Positions 342 to 20,868 of a DNA stretch of 21,432 nucleotides are shown piece after piece. Origin of the DNA: a virus; the IMG/VR virus record IMGVR_UViG_3300037427_002191, positions 1 to 21,432 of that record; one strand, 5' to 3'. Every line of letters starts with the position of its first letter. The stretch's first letter is position 1. The notes under the pieces are model-generated. The model made no database searches, was not told the DNA's origin, and saw nothing but the letters and a program-made list of their open reading frames with translations. A program made the position numbers and the translations under genes.

Positions 342-349
342 GATAAATA
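342..349 (+). promoter_or_regulatory. T4-type late promoter (GATAAATA)
   Basis: GATAAATA matches the T4 late promoter TATAAATA at 7 of 8 bases. It lies 21 nt before the ATG at 371, with a Shine-Dalgarno (AGAAGGGA) in between. It is the only intergenic signal before the 371 gene cluster. Confidence 0.7.
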
Positions 350-2944: not shown

Positions 2945-4221
2945 AACTTGGATTTTTGAAATGGCCTTTTGAAGGCGTAAATATCTCAAATAATTACTCT
3001 GTATATAATTACAGTTTATTAAAGACAAAGCAACCACCTAATAATCTTTTTAGCCACCCTGTAAAAGATACACTTTTTTCACAATCAACTTTAGAACTGT
3101 GGATAAGAAGAACTCAATATTCGCAAAAACATATAGTACCTACTTGGTGTGATTTTAACAGTATCGATTGTGATGCTTTAATAATTCCTTATCACTGGTT
3201 CCTATATTTTACTGAAGAACAATTTCTACTTTTAAGCAAATACAAAGGCAAGATAATTATTGATGAGATTAATGACCCATGGCTGTTTGACGAAAATAAT
3301 GGCTTTACGCATATATTTCCGACCTTTTTAAAAGAACTAAAATCCTTAATAAATTTTGAAAATGTTTATCTTCTTACAAGTGCTAAAGTTAGCGACGAAG
3401 CAATACCATATTTCAAAAACAAATTTAGCAATGTAAAAATTATTTCAAGTAATGTGTTAATGCTGTTAATGTCTGTTACAACTAGGCAAAATAACAAGCG
3501 AATATATAGCGACGAACATATTATACAAAATTTTAATAGTGAAAAGGATAAACAATTTTTATTTTGTTCTGGAAGGCCGAGACAACATAGATTAGCATTA
3601 ATGAAATTCTTAACAGACAACAATTATTTAGACAATAGTTTTGTGTCTGCTAATTTGGCACCTGATGTAGGAGAGTCGATACGCAGTATAACAGACAAAT
3701 ATCTTTATGATATATACAACGATAGAGACAAATATAACTTAGAAGAATTTTGTAACTTAGATGAATTAAAAGCCTATGCTACCACAAAGATTATACCAGA
3801 ATACACAAATGAATACTTTAGATTAGAAAATAGCATACCACAAAATAATGTATATAATAGGTCAAAATTTTCAATTATAAGCGAAACATTATTTCAAACA
3901 TGCTTGACAGGATATAATTTTGTTACAGAAAAAACATGTCTACCTTTTGTTTATGGCCACCCATTTATATTATTTGCTATGAGTAATACATGGCAGTATT
4001 TAGAAGAACTAGGCTTTGAACAATACACACAATTCGGTGTCTATGACAGCATTACAACGCCTTACAGCCGTTTTAATACGTTATGTGACTCAATACAACA
4101 ATCTATTAATGAAGACATGTCTAAACACACCTTAGACACAATCCTCCACAACAGCAACAGATTTTACAGTGACGATTTACAAGATTCAATAGTTTCCAGT
4201 ATTGTTAATCAATTACAATAA
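2941..4221 (+). CDS. Possible glycosyltransferase, 426 aa
   Basis: The ATG overlaps the upstream TGA (ATGA). No complete family signature is visible, but residues about 327-345 (FVTEKTCLPFVYGHPFILF, Glu330-Lys331-Thr332) resemble the sugar-nucleotide-binding segment of GT-B enzymes of the fucosyltransferase (GT10-like) kind, where a conserved 'F-x-T/S-E-K-x-x-x-P' motif is followed by a G-x-P-x-I stretch. The N-terminal half lacks a clear motif and has no signal peptide. Coupling to the SGNH-like gene supports carbohydrate modification as a role. The gene could also be an unrelated phage hypothetical. It ends at a TAA that overlaps a candidate late promoter. Confidence 0.55.
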   Translation: MKLGFLKWPFEGVNISNNYSVYNYSLLKTKQPPNNLFSHPVKDTLFSQSTLELWIRRTQYSQKHIVPTWCDFNSIDCDALIIPYHWFLYFTEEQFLLLSKYKGKIIIDEINDPWLFDENNGFTHIFPTFLKELKSLINFENVYLLTSAKVSDEAIPYFKNKFSNVKIISSNVLMLLMSVTTRQNNKRIYSDEHIIQNFNSEKDKQFLFCSGRPRQHRLALMKFLTDNNYLDNSFVSANLAPDVGESIRSITDKYLYDIYNDRDKYNLEEFCNLDELKAYATTKIIPEYTNEYFRLENSIPQNNVYNRSKFSIISETLFQTCLTGYNFVTEKTCLPFVYGHPFILFAMSNTWQYLEELGFEQYTQFGVYDSITTPYSRFNTLCDSIQQSINEDMSKHTLDTILHNSNRFYSDDLQDSIVSSIVNQLQ

Positions 4222-4224
4222 ATA
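4217..4224 (+). promoter_or_regulatory. T4-type late promoter candidate (AATAAATA)
   Basis: AATAAATA matches TATAAATA at 7 of 8 bases, spans the TAA stop of the upstream gene and lies 29 nt before the ATG at 4254. The Shine-Dalgarno after it is weak (AAAGAA), so this is less certain than other sites here. Confidence 0.5.
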
Positions 4225-6859: not shown

Positions 6860-6867
6860 GATAAATA
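6860..6867 (+). promoter_or_regulatory. T4-type late promoter (GATAAATA)
   Basis: GATAAATA lies in the 46-nt gap before the tail-fibre-like gene, 20 nt ahead of its TTG start, with a GGAG Shine-Dalgarno between. Confidence 0.7.
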
Positions 6868-12459: not shown

Positions 12460-12467
12460 TATAAATA
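12460..12467 (+). promoter_or_regulatory. T4-type late promoter (TATAAATA, exact)
   Basis: An exact TATAAATA lies just after the nrdB stop, 22 nt before the ATG at 12490, with a strong Shine-Dalgarno (AGAGGAA) in between. The promoter separates the metabolic nrd genes from the following late genes. Confidence 0.8.
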
Positions 12468-12489: not shown

Positions 12490-12786
12490 ATGTTACTACA
12501 AAAACCACACGCCAAAGGCGATATTGTCACAATCAAATTAACCAGCGATACCGAAATTATTACACGTTTTGTTTCACAAGACGACAACGGTATTACATTC
12601 GAAAAACCTATGGCAGTAAGTATAACTCCACAAGGACTTGGATTAATGCCTTGGTTATTCAGTGCTGACGCATCTAAAGAAATTACTATTGCTAATACGC
12701 AAGTATTTTGTACAATGGATACATTAAAAGATCTCGCTGATCAATATGTCGAAGGTACAACTGGAATCACGTTAGCAAAAGCATAA
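12490..12786 (+). CDS. Hypothetical protein, possibly Sm-like, 98 aa
   Basis: The ATG has a clear AGAGGA Shine-Dalgarno and an exact late promoter upstream. The product is small, soluble and beta-rich, with strands such as GDIVTIKLTSDTEIITRFVS followed by a turn and PMAVSITPQGLGLMPWLF. Strand spacing (DIVTIKL / EIITRFVSQDDNGITFEKP) suggests an Sm-like open barrel, and a Sm-like protein of putative cyanophage origin is known structurally; whether this is the same family is inference from pattern only. It has no membrane segment. The next gene's late promoter overlaps its stop codon, so the following PAAR gene can be read separately. Confidence 0.7.
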   Translation: MLLQKPHAKGDIVTIKLTSDTEIITRFVSQDDNGITFEKPMAVSITPQGLGLMPWLFSADASKEITIANTQVFCTMDTLKDLADQYVEGTTGITLAKA

Positions 12787-12789
12787 ATA
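12782..12789 (+). promoter_or_regulatory. T4-type late promoter (CATAAATA) 5 nt before ATG
   Basis: CATAAATA overlaps the end of the upstream gene and stops 5 nt before the ATG at 12795. With T4 late spacing (motif at about -13 to -6) transcription would start at the A of ATG. There is no Shine-Dalgarno before this ATG. Confidence 0.65.
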
Positions 12790-12794
12790 CTAGT

Positions 12795-13058
12795 ATGCCA
12801 AAAGCCGCAAGAAAAACAGCAGATATAGCCGGAGGGCCAATCAAAGAAGGGTCTGACAATGTAAAGATTGAAGGACTTGCCGCCGCACGAAAGGGCGATG
12901 CTATACAGGCTCATGGTGATTCACCGCATAAAAATCCAAAGATTGCTGATGGTTCGAGCAGAGTAAAAATTAATGGTAAGCCAGCCGCAAGAGTAGATGA
13001 CCCTGCAACTTGTGGTCATGCTATTCAAGGTGGTGCTAGTCGTGTTAATATTGGATGA
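12795..13058 (+). CDS. PAAR-domain baseplate spike-tip protein
   Basis: This is a short (87 aa) protein of two repeats: about 18-35 (GSDNVKIEGLAAARKGD) and 53-70 (GSSRVKINGKPAARVDD), with a final ASRVNIG strand. Such repeats and the His40/His45, Cys73/His75 set are those of PAAR proteins, which form a sharp cone at the tip of the T4 central spike (gp5.4) and of type VI secretion spikes and bind a metal. It is a little shorter than T4 gp5.4. No other Met occurs in the frame, so ATG 12795 must be the start, even though it has no Shine-Dalgarno and lies 5 nt after a late promoter. It overlaps the next gene by ATGA. Confidence 0.85.
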   Translation: MPKAARKTADIAGGPIKEGSDNVKIEGLAAARKGDAIQAHGDSPHKNPKIADGSSRVKINGKPAARVDDPATCGHAIQGGASRVNIG

Positions 13059-14245
13059 TAGATAACGCCAAATTTGGCATTTCAAATGAAACTAAATTAC
13101 ATTTAGTTCCCATTAAAGAAAAATTACACTTTGATACAGATAAAGTTTATGACTTTAGACGTCGTACTATGTTAGGTGGCATTGGCATAGAATTAGACTT
13201 AGTTGAAGCAAATCTACATGAAGTAATACTGCCTTACACCACTACCGCAATATCAAAAAATCCAAAAATAGAAAACAATATAATTGATTATGTTAGATTA
13301 CATTTAAAAGAATATCTACAGGAGAATAATTATAATTTATTTTTAAGTGGTGGTGTTGACAGCGAAAACGTTGCTAATATATTTTTACAATTAGGCATAC
13401 GATTCACACCAATAATAGTCACATACGGTCATAAAGACAAAGTTCTTAATGATTACGACACAAAGTATGCTTTTGACTTTTGTAATAAACATAATTTAAG
13501 ACCAACTGTTATAGATATAGATATAATTCCGTTTTTTAATACAGGTAAAGTAATGGAGTATTGCAGAGAGTATAAGTGTACTAGTCCACAGTTTCCTCCT
13601 ATACTACACGCATTTGAAAAGATCGACGGTAACATAATTTATTCAGGACATCACAAAATATTTACAAATCTTTTTTACAACGCAAGAAAAGAATCAGCAG
13701 ATTTAGAAACGGTATTAGATAATTTTACTTACAAAAATGATTTGTTTAATGACATAGACTACATGACCAAGCCTACATCATTATGGGTGTTTGATAAAGC
13801 ATTAAGCAAACGCAATGACAACTCTTTGTCTGACTTTTATAATTGTACAGCCGATATGGCTCTAACACAAACTAACAATATGATCAACAATACAAATGTA
13901 ACGTTCGATGAGTTACTAGATTACAATGTGTGGCAATACAGAGAAGGATACATGTATCATGGGTTTGGTCAAGTTGATAATCCTAAAAACTTTAGATCGT
14001 TTAAGAAAGATAAATACGACTTTAAGATAAATCACATTTACACACCAAACAACTTGTTCGCTTTACCTAGAACTAAATATACTGGCTTTGAGGGTATCAA
14101 AAAGTTCTATTCAGATAAATACTTAGGTAAAGACATGTTACTCCAAGAGTTTGACAAGTATTTTAGAGAAACAATGTTGCGATCGACTATAGGTTTTGGA
14201 CAGGAGGCTAGTAGGATCGTAAATTATATATTGAAGGAAGATTAA
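13055..14245 (+). CDS. PP-loop ATPase / asparagine-synthetase-like protein, 396 aa
   Basis: The PP-loop motif S98-G-G-V-D-S103 (in LFLSGGVDSENV) binds the pyrophosphate of ATP. It is followed by PIIVTYGHKDK and VIDID, the strand-loop pattern of the adenylating domain of asparagine synthetases and related N-type ATP pyrophosphatases. There is no N-terminal glutaminase domain (no Cys2), so ammonia or another nucleophile would have to be supplied, or the protein adenylates a different substrate such as a sugar or nucleoside. The C-terminal 150 residues are unrecognised. The start overlaps the PAAR stop by ATGA. A long ORF antisense to it is a shadow. Confidence 0.75.
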   Translation: MIDNAKFGISNETKLHLVPIKEKLHFDTDKVYDFRRRTMLGGIGIELDLVEANLHEVILPYTTTAISKNPKIENNIIDYVRLHLKEYLQENNYNLFLSGGVDSENVANIFLQLGIRFTPIIVTYGHKDKVLNDYDTKYAFDFCNKHNLRPTVIDIDIIPFFNTGKVMEYCREYKCTSPQFPPILHAFEKIDGNIIYSGHHKIFTNLFYNARKESADLETVLDNFTYKNDLFNDIDYMTKPTSLWVFDKALSKRNDNSLSDFYNCTADMALTQTNNMINNTNVTFDELLDYNVWQYREGYMYHGFGQVDNPKNFRSFKKDKYDFKINHIYTPNNLFALPRTKYTGFEGIKKFYSDKYLGKDMLLQEFDKYFRETMLRSTIGFGQEASRIVNYILKED

Positions 14246-14246
14246 T

Positions 14247-15947
14247 ATGGCAGATAAAAACTATTTCGTATCAATGGTAAACCACTTTATTGATAGTGGA
14301 GTATCACCTACAGACTGGTCACCAGATGATCAAAAACAAGAACTAGTAACAGCAGGAGCAACTATTGTTAATGAATTTGCTAATATTGATAGCGGATTTT
14401 ATGAGTTAACTATAGATGAGAGCAACATCAGTAGCATTACTGACTTAGCAAATGTTAAAGCAACTGAAGTAGTAGGAGCGGGTTCAAATGTATCAACTCT
14501 TGCTATTAGTGAATCAACAACAGAATGGCATAAGCAAAGATTAGTTACTAGGAACCTTCCACTAAGAGATACTTTCGATCCTGTTTACGAAGGTGACAAC
14601 TCAACAGTTTATATTGTAGACAGTGGTTGCGATATATTACACCCAGAATTAGCAAATGCTACAATACAAAAAGTTCACAATCCAACTAACGGTGGCTACA
14701 ACGATTTTATCGGCGGTGGCGGAGACGCATCAACATTTACGATTGAAGACGACCATGGACACGGTACAGCAATGGCAAGTTTCATAGCAGGCGACAAATT
14801 AGGTGTTGCCAGAAATGCTAAAATTGGAGTAGTAAAAGTTAGCGGTGCTAATGGGTCTGCTGATATTTCAGATGTTGCTAAAGGTGTCAACTCAATGTTT
14901 ACACATAGAGCATGGGAAACAGCAAAAGACAGTGGTGGTACATACGCAACAGCAGTAGCACTTATGGCGTTTACGTTTCCAAAATCAGAAGCACTAGATA
15001 GGCTTATCACTTGTATGTGGAACAGACGTTTCTTAGTTGTTGCCGCGGCAGGTAATGCCGGTGGTGACGTTGATAATTATTCACCCGGTGGTCTTAACAG
15101 TATCCTTACAGTAGGTGCTAGTGACAGTTCAGATAACGTACCAGCATTCTCAAATGACGCAGGTGCTGTAGTTGAACCAGGTACAGGACTACAAACTAAC
15201 GGTGGTGAAGAAGTTGATGTTTTTGCTCCAGGTGTAGCAATTAATTTAGCCACAATTTCAAATAGAAACGAAGGCGGTGGTTACGACTCAGTAGCAGACG
15301 AAGACTTATACGAAGTTGGGTCAGGTACCAGTGCATCAGCCGCAATAGTAGCCGGTGTATCAGCAATAGCAGTTCAAAGAAACCCAGGTTACAAAGCAGA
15401 ACAAGTTAAAGACTTTGTACAATCACAATCCTTAACAGGAATGTTATTCCAAGATCCAGGATTGTATAGCACAACACCAAATAACATTGTGTATTTAGAA
15501 AATGAATATTATGCTACAGTATGGAACACTAATCCTGGTTCACTAGGTGAAACATTAATTAGTGGAGCAAGTAGTGTTGATCTTGCTTTAGATGTAGCAA
15601 ACACAGTTACAGGTATTGCTAGTTCAGAGTTTGCCGCATTACCACCAGCATTAGAGTTAAGTGGTAACGCAACAGACGGTTGGAAACTCACAGCAAATAC
15701 AACTGTAACAGCGGCATTAACAGAAGATAAAATTTATAACTTTATTTTAACAGCAACTAAAAACGATAACACAGAGTTCAATAGACACTTTGCGTATGGT
15801 TTCTACACAGGTTCAGAAATTACAGATAGTAAAAGAGATGATGCCTCAGAAACATATTTTGTTGTTGACGGTAGTGATACTGAAGAAGTTCTTTATATTA
15901 AAGGTATGCAAGCCGCATTTGGTGGTGGTAACTTCCAACTTAAATAG
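14247..15947 (+). CDS. Subtilisin-like serine protease (S8), 566 aa
   Basis: The S8 catalytic set is complete: Asp125 (VDSGCD), His172 (in HGHGTAMASFIAG), oxyanion Asn270 (AAAGNAGG) and Ser362 (GSGTSASAA). Residues 1-90 resemble an I9-type propeptide/inhibitor (GFYELTIDESN... ITDLANVKATEV), so it may self-activate. No secretion signal is visible. Residues about 420-566 are a separate beta-rich, Ig/cadherin-like domain (PPALELSGNATDGWKL), often used for attachment. The gene has AAGGAAG before ATG, one base after the previous stop, and ends just before a strong terminator. A virion-bound protease acting on host surface proteins or on phage proteins is plausible; the role is inferred. Confidence 0.9.
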   Translation: MADKNYFVSMVNHFIDSGVSPTDWSPDDQKQELVTAGATIVNEFANIDSGFYELTIDESNISSITDLANVKATEVVGAGSNVSTLAISESTTEWHKQRLVTRNLPLRDTFDPVYEGDNSTVYIVDSGCDILHPELANATIQKVHNPTNGGYNDFIGGGGDASTFTIEDDHGHGTAMASFIAGDKLGVARNAKIGVVKVSGANGSADISDVAKGVNSMFTHRAWETAKDSGGTYATAVALMAFTFPKSEALDRLITCMWNRRFLVVAAAGNAGGDVDNYSPGGLNSILTVGASDSSDNVPAFSNDAGAVVEPGTGLQTNGGEEVDVFAPGVAINLATISNRNEGGGYDSVADEDLYEVGSGTSASAAIVAGVSAIAVQRNPGYKAEQVKDFVQSQSLTGMLFQDPGLYSTTPNNIVYLENEYYATVWNTNPGSLGETLISGASSVDLALDVANTVTGIASSEFAALPPALELSGNATDGWKLTANTTVTAALTEDKIYNFILTATKNDNTEFNRHFAYGFYTGSEITDSKRDDASETYFVVDGSDTEEVLYIKGMQAAFGGGNFQLK

Positions 15948-15965
15948 AATCAATTTAATAAAAAG

Positions 15966-15990
15966 TAGGCTGGTAACAGCCTATTTTTTT
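15966..15990 (+). terminator. Rho-independent terminator
   Basis: A perfect 7-bp stem (TAGGCTG / CAGCCTA) with a GTAA tetraloop (GNRA type) is followed by seven T. It lies 18 nt after the subtilase stop and is the only clear intrinsic terminator in the window. It closes the late unit that includes the PAAR, PP-loop and protease genes. Confidence 0.9.
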
Positions 15991-16000
15991 GACTATTCAA

Positions 16001-16008
16001 AATAAATA
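16001..16008 (+). promoter_or_regulatory. T4-type late promoter (AATAAATA) 5 nt before ATG
   Basis: AATAAATA lies just after the terminator and ends 5 nt before the ATG at 16014. No Shine-Dalgarno lies before this ATG. The position implies a leaderless transcript for the GNAT/radical SAM pair. Confidence 0.6.
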
Positions 16009-16013
16009 ATACT

Positions 16014-16490
16014 ATGGACGCGAAAACAATCACATTTGAAGAAATCAGCAACGTGTGGCACTCTAAATTATGGCCAGATAGAGTTAGTCCAATTGAAACG
16101 CATAGTGCTATGACTTGGCCGTTTGATGGTAACCCAATTGAATTTGATATGGACGTTTTTAATTACGAACCAACATTCTTTGGAGTATTTAATAACAATA
16201 AACTAATAGGGGTTAATAGCGGCCACAGAACAAAAGATAATATATACAGAAGTAGAGGTATTTGGGTAGACCCTACTTATAGAAAAATAGGCGTAGCACA
16301 AATGTTATTTCTTATGACAGAAAGTCAAGCAGTAAGAGAAGGCTGTGAAATAATTTGGAGTATACCTAGAAAAAGTGCTCTCAAATCTTATACTAAATTT
16401 GGATTCGAAACTGTGGGAAATTATTTTGACGAGGGCATGGAGTTTGGACCTAACATATATGTTAAAAAGGAAATAAATGTCAATAATTAA
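16014..16490 (+). CDS. GNAT-family N-acetyltransferase, 158 aa
   Basis: The acetyl-CoA-binding motif A is visible at residues 85-96 (VDPTYRKIGVAQ), matching the R/Q-x-x-G-x-G/A loop after a beta-strand (SRGIWVD). The helix AQMLFLMTESQA and strand IIWSIPRKSALKSYTKFGFE follow, the latter being motif B with the common Y-x-k-x-GF pattern of GNATs. Length is typical for a single GNAT domain. The substrate cannot be read from sequence. The ATG has no Shine-Dalgarno, and it sits 5 nt after a late promoter. It overlaps the radical SAM gene by 14 nt, so the two are probably made together. Confidence 0.85.
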   Translation: MDAKTITFEEISNVWHSKLWPDRVSPIETHSAMTWPFDGNPIEFDMDVFNYEPTFFGVFNNNKLIGVNSGHRTKDNIYRSRGIWVDPTYRKIGVAQMLFLMTESQAVREGCEIIWSIPRKSALKSYTKFGFETVGNYFDEGMEFGPNIYVKKEINVNN

Positions 16491-17496
16491 ATTACATGGG
16501 CCTAGAAACGATAATGAACCAAATGACATAACAGTTCAATGGAGTATGGGCAACTTTTGTAATTTTGAATGCGAGTATTGTCCTACACAATTACACGATG
16601 GCAGTATGCCATGGAAAACTACAGAAATATATTTAGACGTAATAGACAAAATATGTACTCATTATTCTACACAAAATAAAACTGTAAACTTTGAATTGAT
16701 TGGCGGCGAAGTAACAACTATACCAGGCTTCATAGACATACTACAAAAAATAAAAGAGCACAATGGTAGAAGTATTGTGTTTACTAACGGTAGTAGGTCA
16801 CGTAATTGGTGGAGCAAGGCAAAACATTACATAGATGATTTAATTATAAGTTTTCATATTAATAGTATGCACGAAGATGATTTAATTGACATGGCAGACG
16901 AAATAAGCGATACAGTACCAGCAAGTTATCACTTAGCAGGCGTAAAAGATAGTTTACCTGATATAGAAATATTACAAAAAAGATTAAGAGAAGTATATAG
17001 AGATAATAAAGTACAGGACTACTACGGTGTTAATATTGACATAAAAACAATGTATAAAAAACTTCTTGGACCAGGAAGTAAACAAGAACCTTTTTACAAT
17101 TACGATGGTAACGATTGGCGTATTATAAATTTACCAGCATGGGAAATAGATCCGTCACCGCCACCACCACAAGAACCTATAGTATATTATCCACCAGAAG
17201 ATAATCAATCACATTTCTTATTTACAGTAATGGCTGACGATAAAACTGTACGTTATATGGAGCCTGATCAAATAATGAATCAAGGCTTAAACAAATTTAA
17301 GGGAATGACATGCCATATAGGCGAACGTGGGTTTAATATTGACATGCGTGGCAATATTGTTAGTAGTTGGTGTGGTGCTAAAATTTACGGTAATGTCTTT
17401 AAAGATAATTTTGAATTACCCACACCAGATGGGGTAGTGTGCCCGCACGAACATTGTAATAATCCAAAAGATATCGCTATTCTCAAAACTGCCTAA
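16477..17496 (+). CDS. Radical SAM protein with SPASM-like C-terminus, 339 aa
   Basis: Cys28-x3-Cys32-x2-Cys35 (CNFECEYC) is the radical SAM cluster motif and ELIGGEVT carries the SAM-binding GGE. The barrel extends to about residue 190. The C-terminal region has four further cysteines (Cys279, Cys299, Cys322, Cys327) in a SPASM/twitch-like spacing, so a second Fe-S cluster is likely. A proline-rich PSPPPPQEP linker is at about residue 226. SPASM proteins usually modify peptides (RiPPs) or proteins, but some act on sugars. The ATG has AAGG 6 nt upstream and overlaps the GNAT gene by 14 nt. No precursor peptide with an obvious leader is seen in front of it. Confidence 0.85.
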   Translation: MSIIKLHGPRNDNEPNDITVQWSMGNFCNFECEYCPTQLHDGSMPWKTTEIYLDVIDKICTHYSTQNKTVNFELIGGEVTTIPGFIDILQKIKEHNGRSIVFTNGSRSRNWWSKAKHYIDDLIISFHINSMHEDDLIDMADEISDTVPASYHLAGVKDSLPDIEILQKRLREVYRDNKVQDYYGVNIDIKTMYKKLLGPGSKQEPFYNYDGNDWRIINLPAWEIDPSPPPPQEPIVYYPPEDNQSHFLFTVMADDKTVRYMEPDQIMNQGLNKFKGMTCHIGERGFNIDMRGNIVSSWCGAKIYGNVFKDNFELPTPDGVVCPHEHCNNPKDIAILKTA

Positions 17497-17521
17497 AACC
17501 ACTATCAAAAAACATATTCGA

Positions 17522-17529
17522 TATAAATA
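17522..17529 (+). promoter_or_regulatory. T4-type late promoter (TATAAATA, exact)
   Basis: Exact TATAAATA, 26 nt after the radical SAM stop. The first downstream start codon is 124 nt away (17654), so the expected transcript has a leader of about 120 nt, much longer than elsewhere in the window. Confidence 0.7.
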
Positions 17530-17567
17530 GATTGTATAAAAGGATATAAGTTACTTTTATATTATTT

Positions 17568-17652
17568 TTGCCCACATTCAAGATAAAATTTTTAATGACA
17601 TGCTAGGTTGTGTGTCGTAGTATCCTATTTTTGGGCAATTACGACAGACAAC
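17568..17652 (+). promoter_or_regulatory. Structured leader RNA: 13-bp hairpin with possible pseudoknot
   Basis: Bases 17607-17619 (GTTGTGTGTCGTA) pair with 17640-17652 (TACGACAGACAAC) over 13 positions with a single G-G mismatch; the loop is 20 nt. The loop contains TGGGCAA (17632-17638), which is complementary to TTGCCCA (17568-17574) upstream, giving pseudoknot topology. AGGATA (17541-17546) can pair with TATCCT (17621-17626) as an alternative. The 3' arm ends one base before ATG 17654, which has no Shine-Dalgarno. A regulatory leader or small RNA is plausible but unproven. Apart from this element and the late promoter, I see nothing between 17497 and 17653. Confidence 0.5.
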
Positions 17653-17653
17653 A

Positions 17654-17740
17654 ATGGATGAATTAAAAGACAAAGCAGAATTATTTACTCTAATATCAAT
17701 ATTTCTTGTAAGTATTCTTGCTCTCACACCAGGATCATGA
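17654..17740 (+). CDS. Candidate 28-aa membrane miniprotein
   Basis: A short N-terminal charged part (MDELKDKAEL) is followed by one hydrophobic segment (FTLISIFLVSILAL) and TPGS. It looks like a single-pass mini membrane protein. Its stop overlaps the next start (ATGA), which is the same arrangement as in larger genes here and is the main reason for accepting so short an ORF. The start sits one base after a hairpin and lacks a Shine-Dalgarno, so translation may be controlled. Function unknown. Confidence 0.4.
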   Translation: MDELKDKAELFTLISIFLVSILALTPGS

Positions 17741-17868
17741 AGTACACAATTTGTTACATGATGCTACTCTTTGCCGCACAAACTGATAATATAGCAGGTA
17801 TTTTACGTGGCATAAGAGATATCAATAATACACCATATCACTTGGAGCCTAGAAAAGATGAAGTATAA
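17737..17868 (+). CDS. Candidate 43-aa small protein
   Basis: It begins MKYTICYMMLLFAAQTDN, a short hydrophobic N-terminus that resembles a weak signal or membrane anchor, followed by a charged tail (GILRGIRDIN...EPRKDEV). The ATG overlaps the upstream TGA, and its last 11 nt overlap the next gene. No family is recognised. Coupled translation with its neighbours is likely from the overlaps. Confidence 0.45.
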   Translation: MKYTICYMMLLFAAQTDNIAGILRGIRDINNTPYHLEPRKDEV

Positions 17869-18037
17869 AGTTAGAGACGCAACACCAGAAGAGTTTGCTG
17901 AGTGGAGGGAAACAGACTATTGGAATAAAATGGATTTTGATCCATTAGTAATGTTTGTTGCCATACCAACAATAGTACAAGTAATGTGTATGGGCATGAT
18001 GTTTGCAGTTATGTATCTTAATTATAGAGTATTTTGA
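17858..18037 (+). CDS. Single-pass membrane protein, 59 aa
   Basis: A soluble acidic N-terminus (MKYKVRDATPEEFAEWRE) is followed by one long, Met-rich hydrophobic segment at about residues 30-54 (VMFVAIPTIVQVMCMGMM...), ending YRVF. It is preceded by AGAAAAGATG, and its stop is overlapped by the next gene's TTG (TTGA). It could be a holin-like or other small inner-membrane protein; the sequence does not decide. It sits in a run of four overlapping small genes. Confidence 0.55.
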   Translation: MKYKVRDATPEEFAEWRETDYWNKMDFDPLVMFVAIPTIVQVMCMGMMFAVMYLNYRVF

Positions 18038-18198
18038 TTATTGAAGCATTAAAGGCTGTAATAGGCGTAGGCAGGAAAACTGATAAAATAGAATTAACAC
18101 CTCTGACAATTATTTGGTTTGCATTTTTAGTAGCCTTATTATTTCTAGGTGGCGTAAGCGGATTATTATTCTTGACAAGTTTAATTATTAATGTATAA
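18034..18198 (+). CDS. Membrane protein, 54 aa, TTG start
   Basis: The frame opens at TTG within TTGA, overlapping the upstream stop; no ATG occurs in it. It encodes about 20 soluble residues (IIEALKAVIGVGRKTDKIEL) and then a strongly hydrophobic region (about 22-53) rich in Leu, Phe, Gly, long enough for one or a hairpin of two membrane segments. TTG starts also occur at 6888 and 8655. The -35 hexamer of the sigma70 promoter for the following gene lies within its 3' end. Function unknown; membrane partner of the previous gene is plausible. Confidence 0.5.
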   Translation: MIIEALKAVIGVGRKTDKIELTPLTIIWFAFLVALLFLGGVSGLLFLTSLIINV

Positions 18199-18199
18199 T
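18172..18199 (+). promoter_or_regulatory. Sigma70-type promoter, full consensus, 16-nt spacer
   Basis: TTGACA (18172-18177) and TATAAT (18194-18199) are both perfect matches and are separated by 16 nt. Expected transcription start is around 18206-18208, only a few bases before ATG 18210. The -10 overlaps a late promoter (18197-18204), so the downstream gene may be read both early by host polymerase and late. Confidence 0.75.
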
Positions 18200-18204
18200 A
18201 AATA
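18197..18204 (+). promoter_or_regulatory. T4-type late promoter (AATAAATA) 5 nt before ATG
   Basis: AATAAATA ends exactly 5 nt before the ATG at 18210 and overlaps the sigma70 -10 box. No Shine-Dalgarno lies before this ATG. Confidence 0.6.
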
Positions 18205-18209
18205 CTATT

Positions 18210-18362
18210 ATGAAAAAGCAAAGGACAATTCAGAAACCCAAGCCGCGATATGCCAAAGAGTTGTTTTCCCGCGACACTCCCTATGGTCATAAAGTTCAAC
18301 GTGACCGCACAAAAACTATACCACGTAAGCAGAAGTATAAAGAAGATTTATCTGGCAAATAA
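18210..18362 (+). CDS. Small basic conserved phage protein, 50 aa
   Basis: A highly basic protein (MKKQRTIQKPKPRYAKELFS, then RDTPYGHKVQRDRTKT). From memory, very similar short basic proteins with YGHKVQRDRTK occur in marine T4-like phages, where they have no assigned role; this is recognition, not a search. Charge suggests nucleic-acid binding. The ATG is the only possible start and is preceded by AATAAATA with 5 nt spacing and by a consensus sigma70 promoter, with no Shine-Dalgarno. It is one of the best-supported small genes outside the main ORF set. Confidence 0.7.
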   Translation: MKKQRTIQKPKPRYAKELFSRDTPYGHKVQRDRTKTIPRKQKYKEDLSGK

Positions 18363-18401
18363 GGTAAATACAAGTAACAAATTAACATAATAAAGAAATA
18401 T

Positions 18402-18563
18402 ATGTCAAGTAAAACACCTTATGAAATCCGTCTAGAACTTATTCAAGAGGCTAGACTCATCCTCCAGGCAAAAGCCAACAAACCTGAATACATGCCAACG
18501 GCAGAAGAGGTTATCGAAGAAGCGGAAAAACTAAACAAGTTTGTATCCAAAAGACCCGAGTAA
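18402..18563 (+). CDS. Small helical conserved phage protein, 53 aa
   Basis: It begins MSSKTPYEIRLELIQEARLI, an amphipathic helix, and continues PTAEEVIEEAEKLNKFVSKR, a second helix. A 'TPYEIRLELL' opening is one I associate with small hypothetical proteins of marine T4-like phages. Upstream is a purine-rich AAAGAA 5 nt before ATG. It is the last gene before tRNA-Thr. Function unknown; a small helical-hairpin DNA- or protein-binding protein is possible. Confidence 0.65.
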   Translation: MSSKTPYEIRLELIQEARLILQAKANKPEYMPTAEEVIEEAEKLNKFVSKRPE

Positions 18564-18597
18564 TCACTCAAACATAAAGTAAATAATATCTAAGTAA

Positions 18598-18673
18598 GCC
18601 ACCGTAACTCAGTTGGTAGAGTAACTGATTTGTAATCAGTAGGTCGTCAGTTCGAGTCTGACCGGTGGCTCCA
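18598..18673 (+). tRNA. trnT-UGU: tRNA-Thr (anticodon UGU)
   Basis: A full cloverleaf of 76 nt. The 7-bp acceptor stem pairs GCCACCG (18598-18604) with CGGTGGC (18663-18669). The D-arm has an ACTC/GAGT stem, the anticodon stem is ACTGA/TCAGT around loop TTTGTAA with anticodon TGT (18631-18633), and the T-arm is GTCAG/CTGAC around TTCGAGT. CCA is encoded (18671-18673). It reads ACA, by eye a very common Thr codon in this window, as expected for an AT-rich phage carrying its own tRNA. Confidence 0.97.
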
Positions 18674-18677
18674 TTTT

Positions 18678-18685
18678 AATAAATA
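18678..18685 (+). promoter_or_regulatory. T4-type late promoter (AATAAATA)
   Basis: AATAAATA lies between the tRNA and the 18715 gene, 29 nt before its ATG, with an ACAGGAA Shine-Dalgarno in the space between. Confidence 0.6.
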
Positions 18686-18714
18686 AAAAGCACACACAAC
18701 TAACAGGAACACAA

Positions 18715-19806
18715 ATGGCACGGAATAAAAAACCAAGAAACAAAAAATACTCAGGTACTAAAAAAACTGCAGAGTCTAACAATTTAGAACCAACCTCAGT
18801 CATAGATCAAGCAAACTTAACCCCAGAGCAAATCCAAGCAGAAGAAATTTTGTTTAGTTTATTGGAAAGAAAAATCGAAATACCGGTAGAAGCATTTGAA
18901 GGTAAACACTTGTTTATTGCTACACCATGTTACGGTGGTCAAGTATCTGAACCATACTTAAGAAGTTTAGTAAGATTAATTCTATTAATGAATAGATTTA
19001 ATGTTGAATTTACACTAAGTACACTAGCAAATGAAAGTTTAATTACAAGAGGTAGAAATACACTTGTAAGTTTCTTTATGGAAAATGAAAAAGCAACACA
19101 TTTGTTTTTTATTGATGCTGATATTGAATACCACCCTGAAGATGTTCTAAGAATGTTAGCATACGACAAGCCTGTTATTACAGGAGCATATCCTAAGAAA
19201 GCACTCAATTGGGATAGTATTATCAATGCCGCAAGGTCACCTAACTTAAACGAAACTCCGGAAACAATCGAAGGACATAGTTCAAACTATGTAACAAACT
19301 TTGATTATCCTGAAGACGAAGAAGGCAACAAAGTTCCTAATGTACAAATACAAGATAACTTAATAAAACTTCTTGATGCTGGTACAGGTTTTATGATGAT
19401 TAAAAAAGAAGTCATTCAAAAAATGTTTGACATGTATCCTGAAACAAAATATAACAATGATTTAAATATTGATAATAAATTTGAGCCGTTTATGTATGCG
19501 TTATTTGATTGTATTATCGATCCAGAAAGTAAACGTTACTTGTCAGAGGACTATACATTCTGTAGACGTTGGCAACAAATTGATGGTGCTATTTGGTTAG
19601 ACCCAAGAGTTGCTCTTAATCACGTTGGACATTATACTTTTAGAGGCAATGTAAGAAAGATGCTTACAGGAGAATCTACGTCAAGTAACTATGTATCGCC
19701 TGATCAAAGACCATTTGTAGTTGGTAAATCTGATAAAGTTAATACACCTAAGGCTGAAGAAAACACAACAAGTCAAAATAAAATACAACTGAGTAAAAAG
19801 AAATGA
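18715..19806 (+). CDS. GT-A glycosyltransferase (GT2-like), 363 aa
   Basis: After a basic, low-complexity N-terminus (about 45 residues, many Lys/Asn) comes a GT-A fold: HLFIATPCYGGQVSEPYL (nucleotide-sugar strand), then FFIDADIEYHPED with the metal-binding Asp134-Ala-Asp136 (DxD). LSEDYTFCRRW is the acceptor/base region and LNHVGHYTFRG carries a late His. The set of motifs is that of family-2-type glycosyltransferases common in marine T4-like phages. No membrane segment is visible, so it acts in the cytoplasm, perhaps on phage DNA, virion protein or a cell-envelope precursor. It overlaps the next glycosyltransferase by ATGA. Confidence 0.85.
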   Translation: MARNKKPRNKKYSGTKKTAESNNLEPTSVIDQANLTPEQIQAEEILFSLLERKIEIPVEAFEGKHLFIATPCYGGQVSEPYLRSLVRLILLMNRFNVEFTLSTLANESLITRGRNTLVSFFMENEKATHLFFIDADIEYHPEDVLRMLAYDKPVITGAYPKKALNWDSIINAARSPNLNETPETIEGHSSNYVTNFDYPEDEEGNKVPNVQIQDNLIKLLDAGTGFMMIKKEVIQKMFDMYPETKYNNDLNIDNKFEPFMYALFDCIIDPESKRYLSEDYTFCRRWQQIDGAIWLDPRVALNHVGHYTFRGNVRKMLTGESTSSNYVSPDQRPFVVGKSDKVNTPKAEENTTSQNKIQLSKKK

Positions 19807-20621
19807 AGAAGATAAGTGTACTATTAGCAACTAGAGGAAGACCAGAGATGCTAGAAAAAAGCATTGACAGTTTAATGACTAACGTCAGTGATTCAGAAAA
19901 TGTAGAAATAATGCTAGGCATCGATAACGATGACCAAGATACTTTAGATTTTGTTCAGACTGACGAATTTCAAAATAAATTACAAGATGAATATAATGTA
20001 GATGTACAAGCAGTTTTATTTGATAGACTAGGTTATAAAAATCTACATCAATACATGAATCAACTTTGGGGACAGGCACACGGCGAATGGTTAATGTTGT
20101 GGAATGACGATGCTATTATGGAAACCAAAGATTGGGATTTAGAAATTGGCAAATTTGATGATAAGTTTGCTTTACTAAAGTTTAATCAAGTTAATCATAC
20201 ACACCCATACGCATTGTTTCCAGTGATCCCTACAGACTGGTGTAGACTAATAGGTAACTTTAGTTTGAACGCACAAAACGATGCTTGGTTAAATCTTATT
20301 GCTAAACCGTTAGGCATAATTAAAAACATTCCTGTTGATGTTGTTCATGATCGATTTGATTTAACGGGCAACAATGACGACGAAATATTTAGAAGTAGAG
20401 AATACGCAGAAGGCAATCCACAAGATCCAAATGATCTAATGAATGAAAGTATGATTAAAACAAGAGATGCTATTATACATAAAATAGCATGGTATTGTGA
20501 TAGAATAGGTCAAAAAGAAACTAGTGAATATTTTGCTAAAGTAAAACAGGGCGAAATTGACCCTTATGAAGATTGGAAAGAAATCAGAGAAGAATCAGTA
20601 GGATTAGGCTCTGGTTTATAA
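19803..20621 (+). CDS. GT2-like glycosyltransferase, 272 aa
   Basis: The N-terminus KISVLLATRGRPEMLEKSIDSL is a typical GT-A nucleotide-binding opening. LMLWNDDAIME holds Asp102-Asp103 at the place of the DxD motif. The rest (residues 110-272) includes CRLIGNFSLNAQNDAWLN and VVHDRFDLTGNNDDE, with no further motif known to me. It is shorter than the preceding GT and has no membrane segment. The ATGA overlap shows the two are coupled. They may add consecutive sugars or form a heteromer. The 3' end contains a late promoter for the next gene. Confidence 0.8.
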   Translation: MKKISVLLATRGRPEMLEKSIDSLMTNVSDSENVEIMLGIDNDDQDTLDFVQTDEFQNKLQDEYNVDVQAVLFDRLGYKNLHQYMNQLWGQAHGEWLMLWNDDAIMETKDWDLEIGKFDDKFALLKFNQVNHTHPYALFPVIPTDWCRLIGNFSLNAQNDAWLNLIAKPLGIIKNIPVDVVHDRFDLTGNNDDEIFRSREYAEGNPQDPNDLMNESMIKTRDAIIHKIAWYCDRIGQKETSEYFAKVKQGEIDPYEDWKEIREESVGLGSGL

Positions 20622-20624
20622 ATA
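20617..20624 (+). promoter_or_regulatory. T4-type late promoter (TATAAATA, exact) 5 nt before ATG
   Basis: An exact TATAAATA overlaps the stop codon of the upstream glycosyltransferase and ends 5 nt before ATG 20630. The nearest Shine-Dalgarno-like AGG is more than 20 nt upstream. Confidence 0.7.
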
Positions 20625-20629
20625 GTAGT

Positions 20630-20836
20630 ATGGCAACAAAAGGAAAGAAAAAGAACGTCACAGTTTATTTGATACCGGAAGGGGAAACAAGAGATAGTCA
20701 TACTTATCACTATACAGCAGTTAAAACAAAAACACTCATACAAGAAAACAGGAAACTTAAGATGAAAAAGTACAATCCTGTTAAAAGAATACATGAGATG
20801 TTTGTTGAAGCAAAACTTCCTAAACATCAGAAATAA
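20630..20836 (+). CDS. rpmG: Ribosomal protein bL33-like, 68 aa
   Basis: The C-terminal 35 residues match bacterial bL33: YTAVKTK, then KLKMKKYNPVKRIHEMF-VEAK, against the family pattern Y-T-x-x-K-x-K ... KL-x-x-KK-(F/Y)-(D/N)-P-V-x-R-x-H-x-x-x-x-EAK. It is of the type lacking the zinc-binding CxxC. E. coli bL33 has 55 residues; here the first beta-turn is longer and there are two extra residues before KL. bL33 sits at the 50S E-site. I start it at ATG 20630 because the domain begins MATKGKKKNVTVYLI; an earlier in-frame ATG at 20573 lies inside the upstream gene. A late promoter ends 5 nt before. Identification is by motif, from memory of the family. Confidence 0.65.
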   Translation: MATKGKKKNVTVYLIPEGETRDSHTYHYTAVKTKTLIQENRKLKMKKYNPVKRIHEMFVEAKLPKHQK

Positions 20837-20849
20837 TAGTTGACAACTA
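20837..20849 (+). repeat. 13-bp perfect palindrome over the sigma70 -35 box
   Basis: TAGTTG-A-CAACTA is a perfect inverted repeat with 6-bp arms and a single central base. It overlaps the -35 hexamer (20840-20845) of the promoter driving the 20877 gene, so it is a candidate operator. No repressor gene is visible near it. Confidence 0.45.
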
Positions 20850-20868
20850 CCATAAATAGTAGTATAAT
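20840..20868 (+). promoter_or_regulatory. Sigma70-type promoter, full consensus, 17-nt spacer
   Basis: TTGACA (20840-20845) and TATAAT (20863-20868) are both perfect and separated by the optimal 17 nt. It stands 8 nt before the ATG at 20877. A late promoter lies entirely in its spacer. Likely used early by host RNA polymerase. Confidence 0.85.
20851..20858 (+). promoter_or_regulatory. T4-type late promoter (CATAAATA) within sigma70 spacer
   Basis: CATAAATA (7/8 to TATAAATA) lies between the -35 and -10 boxes of the sigma70 promoter. By T4 spacing +1 would be about 20864, giving a 13-nt leader with AGG 5 nt before ATG 20877. Confidence 0.55.

Follow-up and report, generated by a model that had tools for sequence, protein, structure and literature searches.

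T4-type late promoters five nucleotides before start codons predict leaderless late mRNAs in marine phages

Late promoters and genes in the window

The window, by which we mean the whole 21,432-nucleotide stretch of phage DNA that was analysed, carries late promoter boxes at two kinds of distance from the genes that follow them (Table 1). Four boxes are followed by exactly five nucleotides and then an ATG (spacing N5), and no AGG, GAG or GGA occurs within about 15 nt 5' of these four ATGs. The original prediction had described four NATAAATA-N5-ATG sites without a Shine-Dalgarno (SD) sequence, and all four were found exactly so. Its leadered promoters at 342, 4217, 6860, 12460 and 18678, each with an SD (weak at 4217), were likewise recovered. 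The sites in its list of boxes were correct, but the list omitted the in-gene boxes 14009 and 14114 and two minus-strand boxes, and also 17522 and 20851.

Table 1. Late promoters, genes and associated elements in the window.
Feature	Coordinates	Strand	Details
Leadered late promoter	342..349	+	21 nt to ATG 371; SD present
Leadered late promoter	4217..4224	+	29 nt to ATG 4254; weak SD
Leadered late promoter	6860..6867	+	20 nt to TTG 6888; SD cggag
Leadered late promoter	12460..12467	+	22 nt to ATG 12490; SD gagga
Late promoter box CATAAATA	12782..12789	+	Spacer ctagt, then ATG 12795
PAAR-motif protein gene	12795..13058	+	PF05488, 5.7e-17; ATG 5 nt past box; no SD
Terminator-like hairpin and T run, 5' of GNAT gene	15966..15983	+	Plus strand AGGCTGGTAACAGCCTATTTTTTT
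Late promoter box AATAAATA	16001..16008	+	Spacer atact, then ATG 16014
GNAT acetyltransferase gene	16014..16490	+	PF00583, 2e-10; start 5 nt past box
Composite promoter TTGACA-N16-TATAAT fused to AATAAATA (TATAATAAATA)	18172..18204	+	Sigma-70 part 18172-18199
Late box AATAAATA of small basic gene	18197..18204	+	Spacer ctatt, then ATG 18210
Small basic protein gene	18210..18362	+	50 aa; ATG 5 nt past box; no SD
Leadered late promoter, just 3' of tRNA-Thr	18678..18685	+	29 nt to ATG 18715; SD agga
Late promoter box TATAAATA	20617..20624	+	Spacer gtagt, then ATG 20630
bL33-like protein gene	20630..20836	+	68 aa; ATG 5 nt past box; no SD
Composite promoter TTGACA-N17-TATAAT with late box 20851	20840..20868	+	For ORF 20877; leadered class

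The PAAR and GNAT identities proposed for two of the N5 genes agree with their Pfam assignments. A family search, Pfam included, assigned no family to the small basic protein. The product of 20630-20836 has a weak bL33 match (PF00471, E 0.0011, below the curated cut-off) and also matched PDB bL33 chains (E 0.002); this bL33-like ribosomal protein gene sits behind a leaderless-type late promoter. Elsewhere in the window, a phage ORF at 14247-15947 encodes a Subtilase-family protease domain (PF00082), and a tRNA-Thr gene (TGT, 18598-18673) adjoins the leadered late promoter 18678 on its 5' side.

Two of the boxes, 18197 and 20851, overlap sigma-70 promoters, both of them perfect (12/12). The string gtagtATA that follows box 20851 is the TATAAT -10 element of the promoter at 20840-20868. 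The composite at 18172..18204 is conserved as TATAATAAATA at the homologous loci that bear a box. The two composites (18172-18204 and 20840-20868) are conserved in relatives and are probably early/late promoters. Judging by sigma-70 geometry, the genes behind them may be transcribed early too, from nearly the same start and with a leader of 3-4 nt.

The ATAAATA heptamer is no more common in the window than expected by chance (15 sites versus 14 in shuffled sequence). The probability that at least four of the 15 boxes are followed by an ATG at one pre-named spacing is 1.5e-4, for a spacing that was in fact picked post hoc. Because the spacing was chosen after being seen, the window alone is only suggestive as evidence for an N5 class.

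Conservation of the five-nucleotide spacing

We used three window proteins to retrieve 104 related loci from viral contigs. This related marine phage DNA amounts to 1.7 Mb and holds 589 distinct ATAAATA boxes after deduplication. At spacings 3 to 8 past these boxes, ATG occurred 12, 2, 139, 21, 5, and 10 times, respectively; eleven control 7-mers in the same 1.7 Mb gave flat counts without a comparable peak. ATGs that open ORFs were almost absent at spacings 0-4 and few at the spacings neighbouring N5, N6 excepted. When the downstream proteins were clustered, the N5 genes of the 104-locus set fell into 37 families.

The set was then enlarged with larger relatives: G001 (340 kb), G004 (130 kb), and the complete genome of HTVC008M. 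The first box base in the enlarged set can be G, A, T or C, so that the box is NATAAATA, a T4-type late box. Counts of families per spacing were N5 72/161, N4 1, N6 16, N7 3, and N8 8. That a single gene family copied many times produced the peak is ruled out by the 72 N5 families. Comparison of N5 with N4, N6 and N7 in relatives had been proposed as a check on the original prediction, and N5 came out ahead several-fold to by an order of magnitude, in sites as well as in families. Box-to-start distances are bimodal, at either 5-8 nt or 17-45 nt, with leadered starts appearing from about 17 nt past the box onward in the enlarged set. There are therefore two spacing classes, as had been claimed, but not a second type of late promoter: the same late box is placed differently. 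The start codons at N5 were 174 ATG, 10 GTG, and 1 TTG (minimum ORF length 40 codons for ATG, 60 codons for GTG or TTG), an AUG preference of the kind expected for leaderless mRNA. Sigma-70-like promoters overlap 14 of the 174 N5 sites, a set that includes those of the larger relatives.

The spacing is also overrepresented within single genomes. An ATG stands at N5 past 24 of 71 boxes in G004 (expected 1.4, P 5e-23), 19 of 121 in G001 (P 2e-12), 9 of 45 in HTVC008M (P 2e-7), and 8 of 56 in the phage Mosig (P 1e-5). A chance meeting of an AT-rich motif with ATG would fit the ordinary frequency of ATAAATA in the window, but it does not account for 72 independent families, for the flat control 7-mers, or for the P value of 5e-23 in one relative. 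The comparative counts, with the control 7-mers and the single-genome binomials, refute this explanation, and we consider its probability negligible.

Loss of Shine-Dalgarno sequences, and coupling as a rival explanation

We scored SD strength as the energy of the anti-SD duplex. Only 3 of the 72 N5 families have a strong SD, compared with 57 of 82 leadered families (Fisher P 1.8e-18), and the median duplex energies are +0.3 kcal/mol and -5.8 kcal/mol, respectively. SD-like matches are found in 6% of the N5 class versus 13% of random ATGs. N5 families thus almost always lack a strong upstream SD, as leaderless mRNAs do, and the claimed co-variation of motif, spacing and SD loss is borne out at the level of families.

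Starts without an SD could also be read from long read-through mRNAs, through translational coupling to the upstream gene or re-initiation after it, with the box lying where it does for compactness and for its TAA stop. A co-directional upstream ORF is present at 138 of 170 N5 sites, and in 39 of these 138 the upstream stop is the TAA inside ATAAATA. Two window sites are among them, where the TAA of box 12782 ends ORF 12490-12786 and that of box 20617 ends ORF 19803-20621. However, 29 of the 170 N5 sites are divergent, without a co-directional upstream ORF, and the GNAT gene lies behind a conserved terminator-like hairpin. Coupling, moreover, requires no fixed 5-nt distance from a box, and a trough at N4 and N7 would not be expected from it. 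We therefore regard coupling as an improbable explanation, ruled out as a general cause by the divergent sites. Read-through mRNAs probably do exist: because 138 of 170 sites have a co-directional upstream gene, many N5 starts are probably covered by them as well, which we count against the leaderless reading.

The hairpin upstream of the GNAT gene, with its T run, is kept in GNAT homologues and, as far as its sequence indicates, would shield the gene from transcription coming from upstream. In the feature scan, the hairpin is listed at the same coordinates (15966..15983) on the minus strand.

Predicted position of the transcription start

Late transcription in T4 is a textbook case, and the late mRNAs there have leaders with SD sites. 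In the numbering used for T4 late genes, the first box base is -13, and transcription starts about one helical turn past the box (PMC2988020). By this numbering +1 would therefore be the sixth base after the box, which at N5 sites is the A of the ATG.

Leadered sites offer an independent view of the same position. Among leadered, SD-bearing sites, A occupies the N5 position at 73% of the 158 from marine phages and 64% of the 25 from T4; in neither set is any other position past the box as strongly biased. Because the leadered sites have no ATG preference there, the likeliest role of their A is that of initiating nucleotide.

The same observation bears on whether the ATG could belong to an extended promoter consensus (TATAAATAcTAgTATG-like) and serve as a start codon only by coincidence. 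The N5 spacer does have a mild consensus (C/G, T, A, G/T, T) that is in part common to leadered sites. Against a longer consensus, 134 of 138 N5 ATGs open long ORFs (at least 40 codons), GTG takes the place of ATG in homologues, and T4 and cyanophages have the same box without an N5 ATG class. The artefact is rejected on the strength of the leadered sites, where A is found without a preference for ATG, and we hold it to be very improbable.

We favour the explanation that T4-type late promoters set +1 on the A of the start codon and yield predicted leaderless late mRNAs that are translated without an SD, to which we assign a probability of about 85%. The boxes would be recognised by the phage gp55 sigma factor together with gp33 and the gp45 clamp, and the initiating A would coincide with the A of the start codon. 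Late mRNAs of N5 genes would then begin with 5'-AUG, leaderless, and would be translated without SD pairing, probably through recognition of the 5'-AUG by 70S ribosomes. Other late genes of the same phages would use the same box with a leader of 17-45 nt and an SD, so that promoter placement would sort late genes into two translation classes. What is observed directly is the box, its spacing, the ORFs, the loss of the SD, conservation, and gp55 in relatives; we infer +1 and the leaderless 5' ends from promoter geometry, and infer the mode of translation as well.

Homologues of the window genes

Membership in the N5 or the leadered class is mostly conserved gene by gene. All nine GNAT homologues are at N5, as are all nine small basic homologues that bear a box, which agrees with the fixed spacing expected in homologues. 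PAAR homologues depart from it in part (16 of 28 at N5, six at N8, and one at N6), and some genes are at N6. On the leadered side, homologues of ORF 18715 have leaders of N27-29, and those of ORF 20877 are at N18-19 in all box-bearing cases. Close homologues of ORF 12490 have leaders of N19-22 and two distant ones are at N5.

The GNAT family bears on the leaderless reading in two ways. Seven of the nine homologues start with GTG, and the spacing of 5 is held while the start codon switches from ATG to GTG, which we count in favour. Leaderless GUG is weak in E. coli, and GTG starts would be unusual for leaderless initiation, a point against. The N6 and N8 variants imply leaders of 1 and 3 nt, suggesting that an exact zero is not obligatory. 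One of the N5 sites in the window doubles as a sigma-70 promoter, from which the RNA would have a leader of 3-4 nt; this too is counted against.

Distribution and late sigma factors

We determined the distribution from whole-record searches and full-genome spacing spectra. Three cultured Kyanoviridae have the N5 class: HTVC008M, Mosig, and Melnitz. HTVC008M, a cultured Pelagibacter phage, has nine N5 sites, all nine at independently annotated CDS starts; the genes include those for the tape measure, DNA end protector, tail tube cap, baseplate wedge, and a CsgF-like protein, among others. Mosig, also a cultured Pelagibacter phage, has eight, seven of them at annotated starts including that of the DNA end protector, and three of the four N5 sites in Melnitz have ORFs. 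Melnitz also has a protein resembling the DNA end protector whose gene is at N5. PA5oct shows a weak N5 excess (8/145, P 0.006), with five sites having ORFs.

T4 has two N5 ATGs at its 65 boxes, neither of which opens a 40-codon ORF. Syn9 has no N5 ATG with an ORF and P-SSM4 at most two, and counts in S-PM2 and P-SSM2 are near control. Spacing searches of KVP40, Aeh1, Cr30, phiM12, phiM9, and VAP7 gave no N5 sites. A trait of all T4-like phages is thereby ruled out, since T4, KVP40, Aeh1, Cr30, phiM12, phiM9, and the tested cyanophages lack the class or show it at control level. The N5 architecture belongs to particular marine lineages rather than to T4-like phages in general.

A gp55-like late sigma factor was found in the relatives HTVC008M and G001; the 21-kb window is a fragment without these genes. 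HTVC008M is annotated with the late sigma gp55, a gp33-like factor, and a clamp. G001, a large marine phage genome (339,794-bp contig, loci L125-L141), encodes a gp55 of 290 aa (PHROG 12791, 2.5e-93) that is 46% identical to PA5oct gp55 (46-48% to PA5oct and the Sinorhizobium phage Phosso). This identity appears to link these marine phages to known jumbo lineages. The window contig belongs among these marine phages, which have a gp55 similar to the gp55 of jumbo phages.

Relation to known systems

T4 late promoters (gp55/gp33/gp45; TATAAATA) share with those described here the box, the late sigma family, and the +1 offset (PMC2988020), as well as the A at the N5 position of leadered sites. They differ in that none of the 65 T4 boxes has an ORF-opening N5 ATG; most starts there lie 12-38 nt away, and many of them have an SD. 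The late promoters of cyanophages S-PM2 and Syn9 have the same box, NATAAATA (PMC2984593), but Syn9 lacks the N5 class, P-SSM4 has at most two such sites, and S-PM2 and P-SSM2 are near control. Thermus phage phiYS40 has leaderless middle and late mRNAs (PMC3594737), as predicted for the marine phages. It differs in having a Thermus host, a link to altered levels of IF2 and IF3, and no described T4-type late box (PMC3594737); in the marine phages, only some of the late genes are predicted to be leaderless. In TA-led bacterial genes, an accepted mark of leaderless expression is a -10-like box about 10-12 bp 5' of the start (PMC3160421). The distance and the missing SD are shared, but those are host genes with sigma-70-type promoters, whereas the marine phages use a phage late sigma box.

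In the openly licensed literature, we found no paper describing leaderless expression driven by T4-type late promoters. Leaderless phage late mRNAs are already known; what would be new is their predicted expression from a T4-type (gp55) late promoter. If this is correct, marine phages set one promoter in either of two registers, with the start codon at +1 in one of them, and promoter choice is linked to the mode of translation. From sequence, the rule predicts the mRNA 5' ends of over 70 gene families of phages that infect Pelagibacter and relatives, and it helps to correct gene starts. HTVC008M or Mosig on HTCC1062 provides a cultured system for leaderless translation.

Ribosomal proteins encoded by the phages

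The ribosomal protein bS21 is in contact with the anti-SD helix, and it has been suggested that it favours the mRNAs of the phage in late infection (PMC9723584). Of the 16 records searched first, 12 encode bS21, including most of the N5-rich contigs: HTVC008M, Mosig, Melnitz, G001, G002, G004-G008, PA5oct, and Phosso. It was not found in T4 or in G003, G009, and G010, the latter three being fragments, nor in any of the 18 records with few or no N5 sites that served as a comparison. Phosso has bS21 without an N5 site. A leaderless late regulon could conceivably be tied to ribosome remodelling, with late ribosomes carrying phage bS21 (and the bL33-like protein) favouring 5'-AUG mRNAs, although we think this rather doubtful. 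Efficient reading of N5 genes would in that case be limited to the late phase and to transcripts from their own promoter. The association between bS21 and N5 is confounded by kinship, and we treat it as a lead, not a finding.

Back-to-back late promoters

Late promoters on opposite strands stand back to back 5' of PAAR homologues at four loci (L022, L027, L030, and L004), and such a pair also occurs in G004 (123269-123319). In these pairs both starts lie 5-8 nt past their boxes, within about 50 bp.
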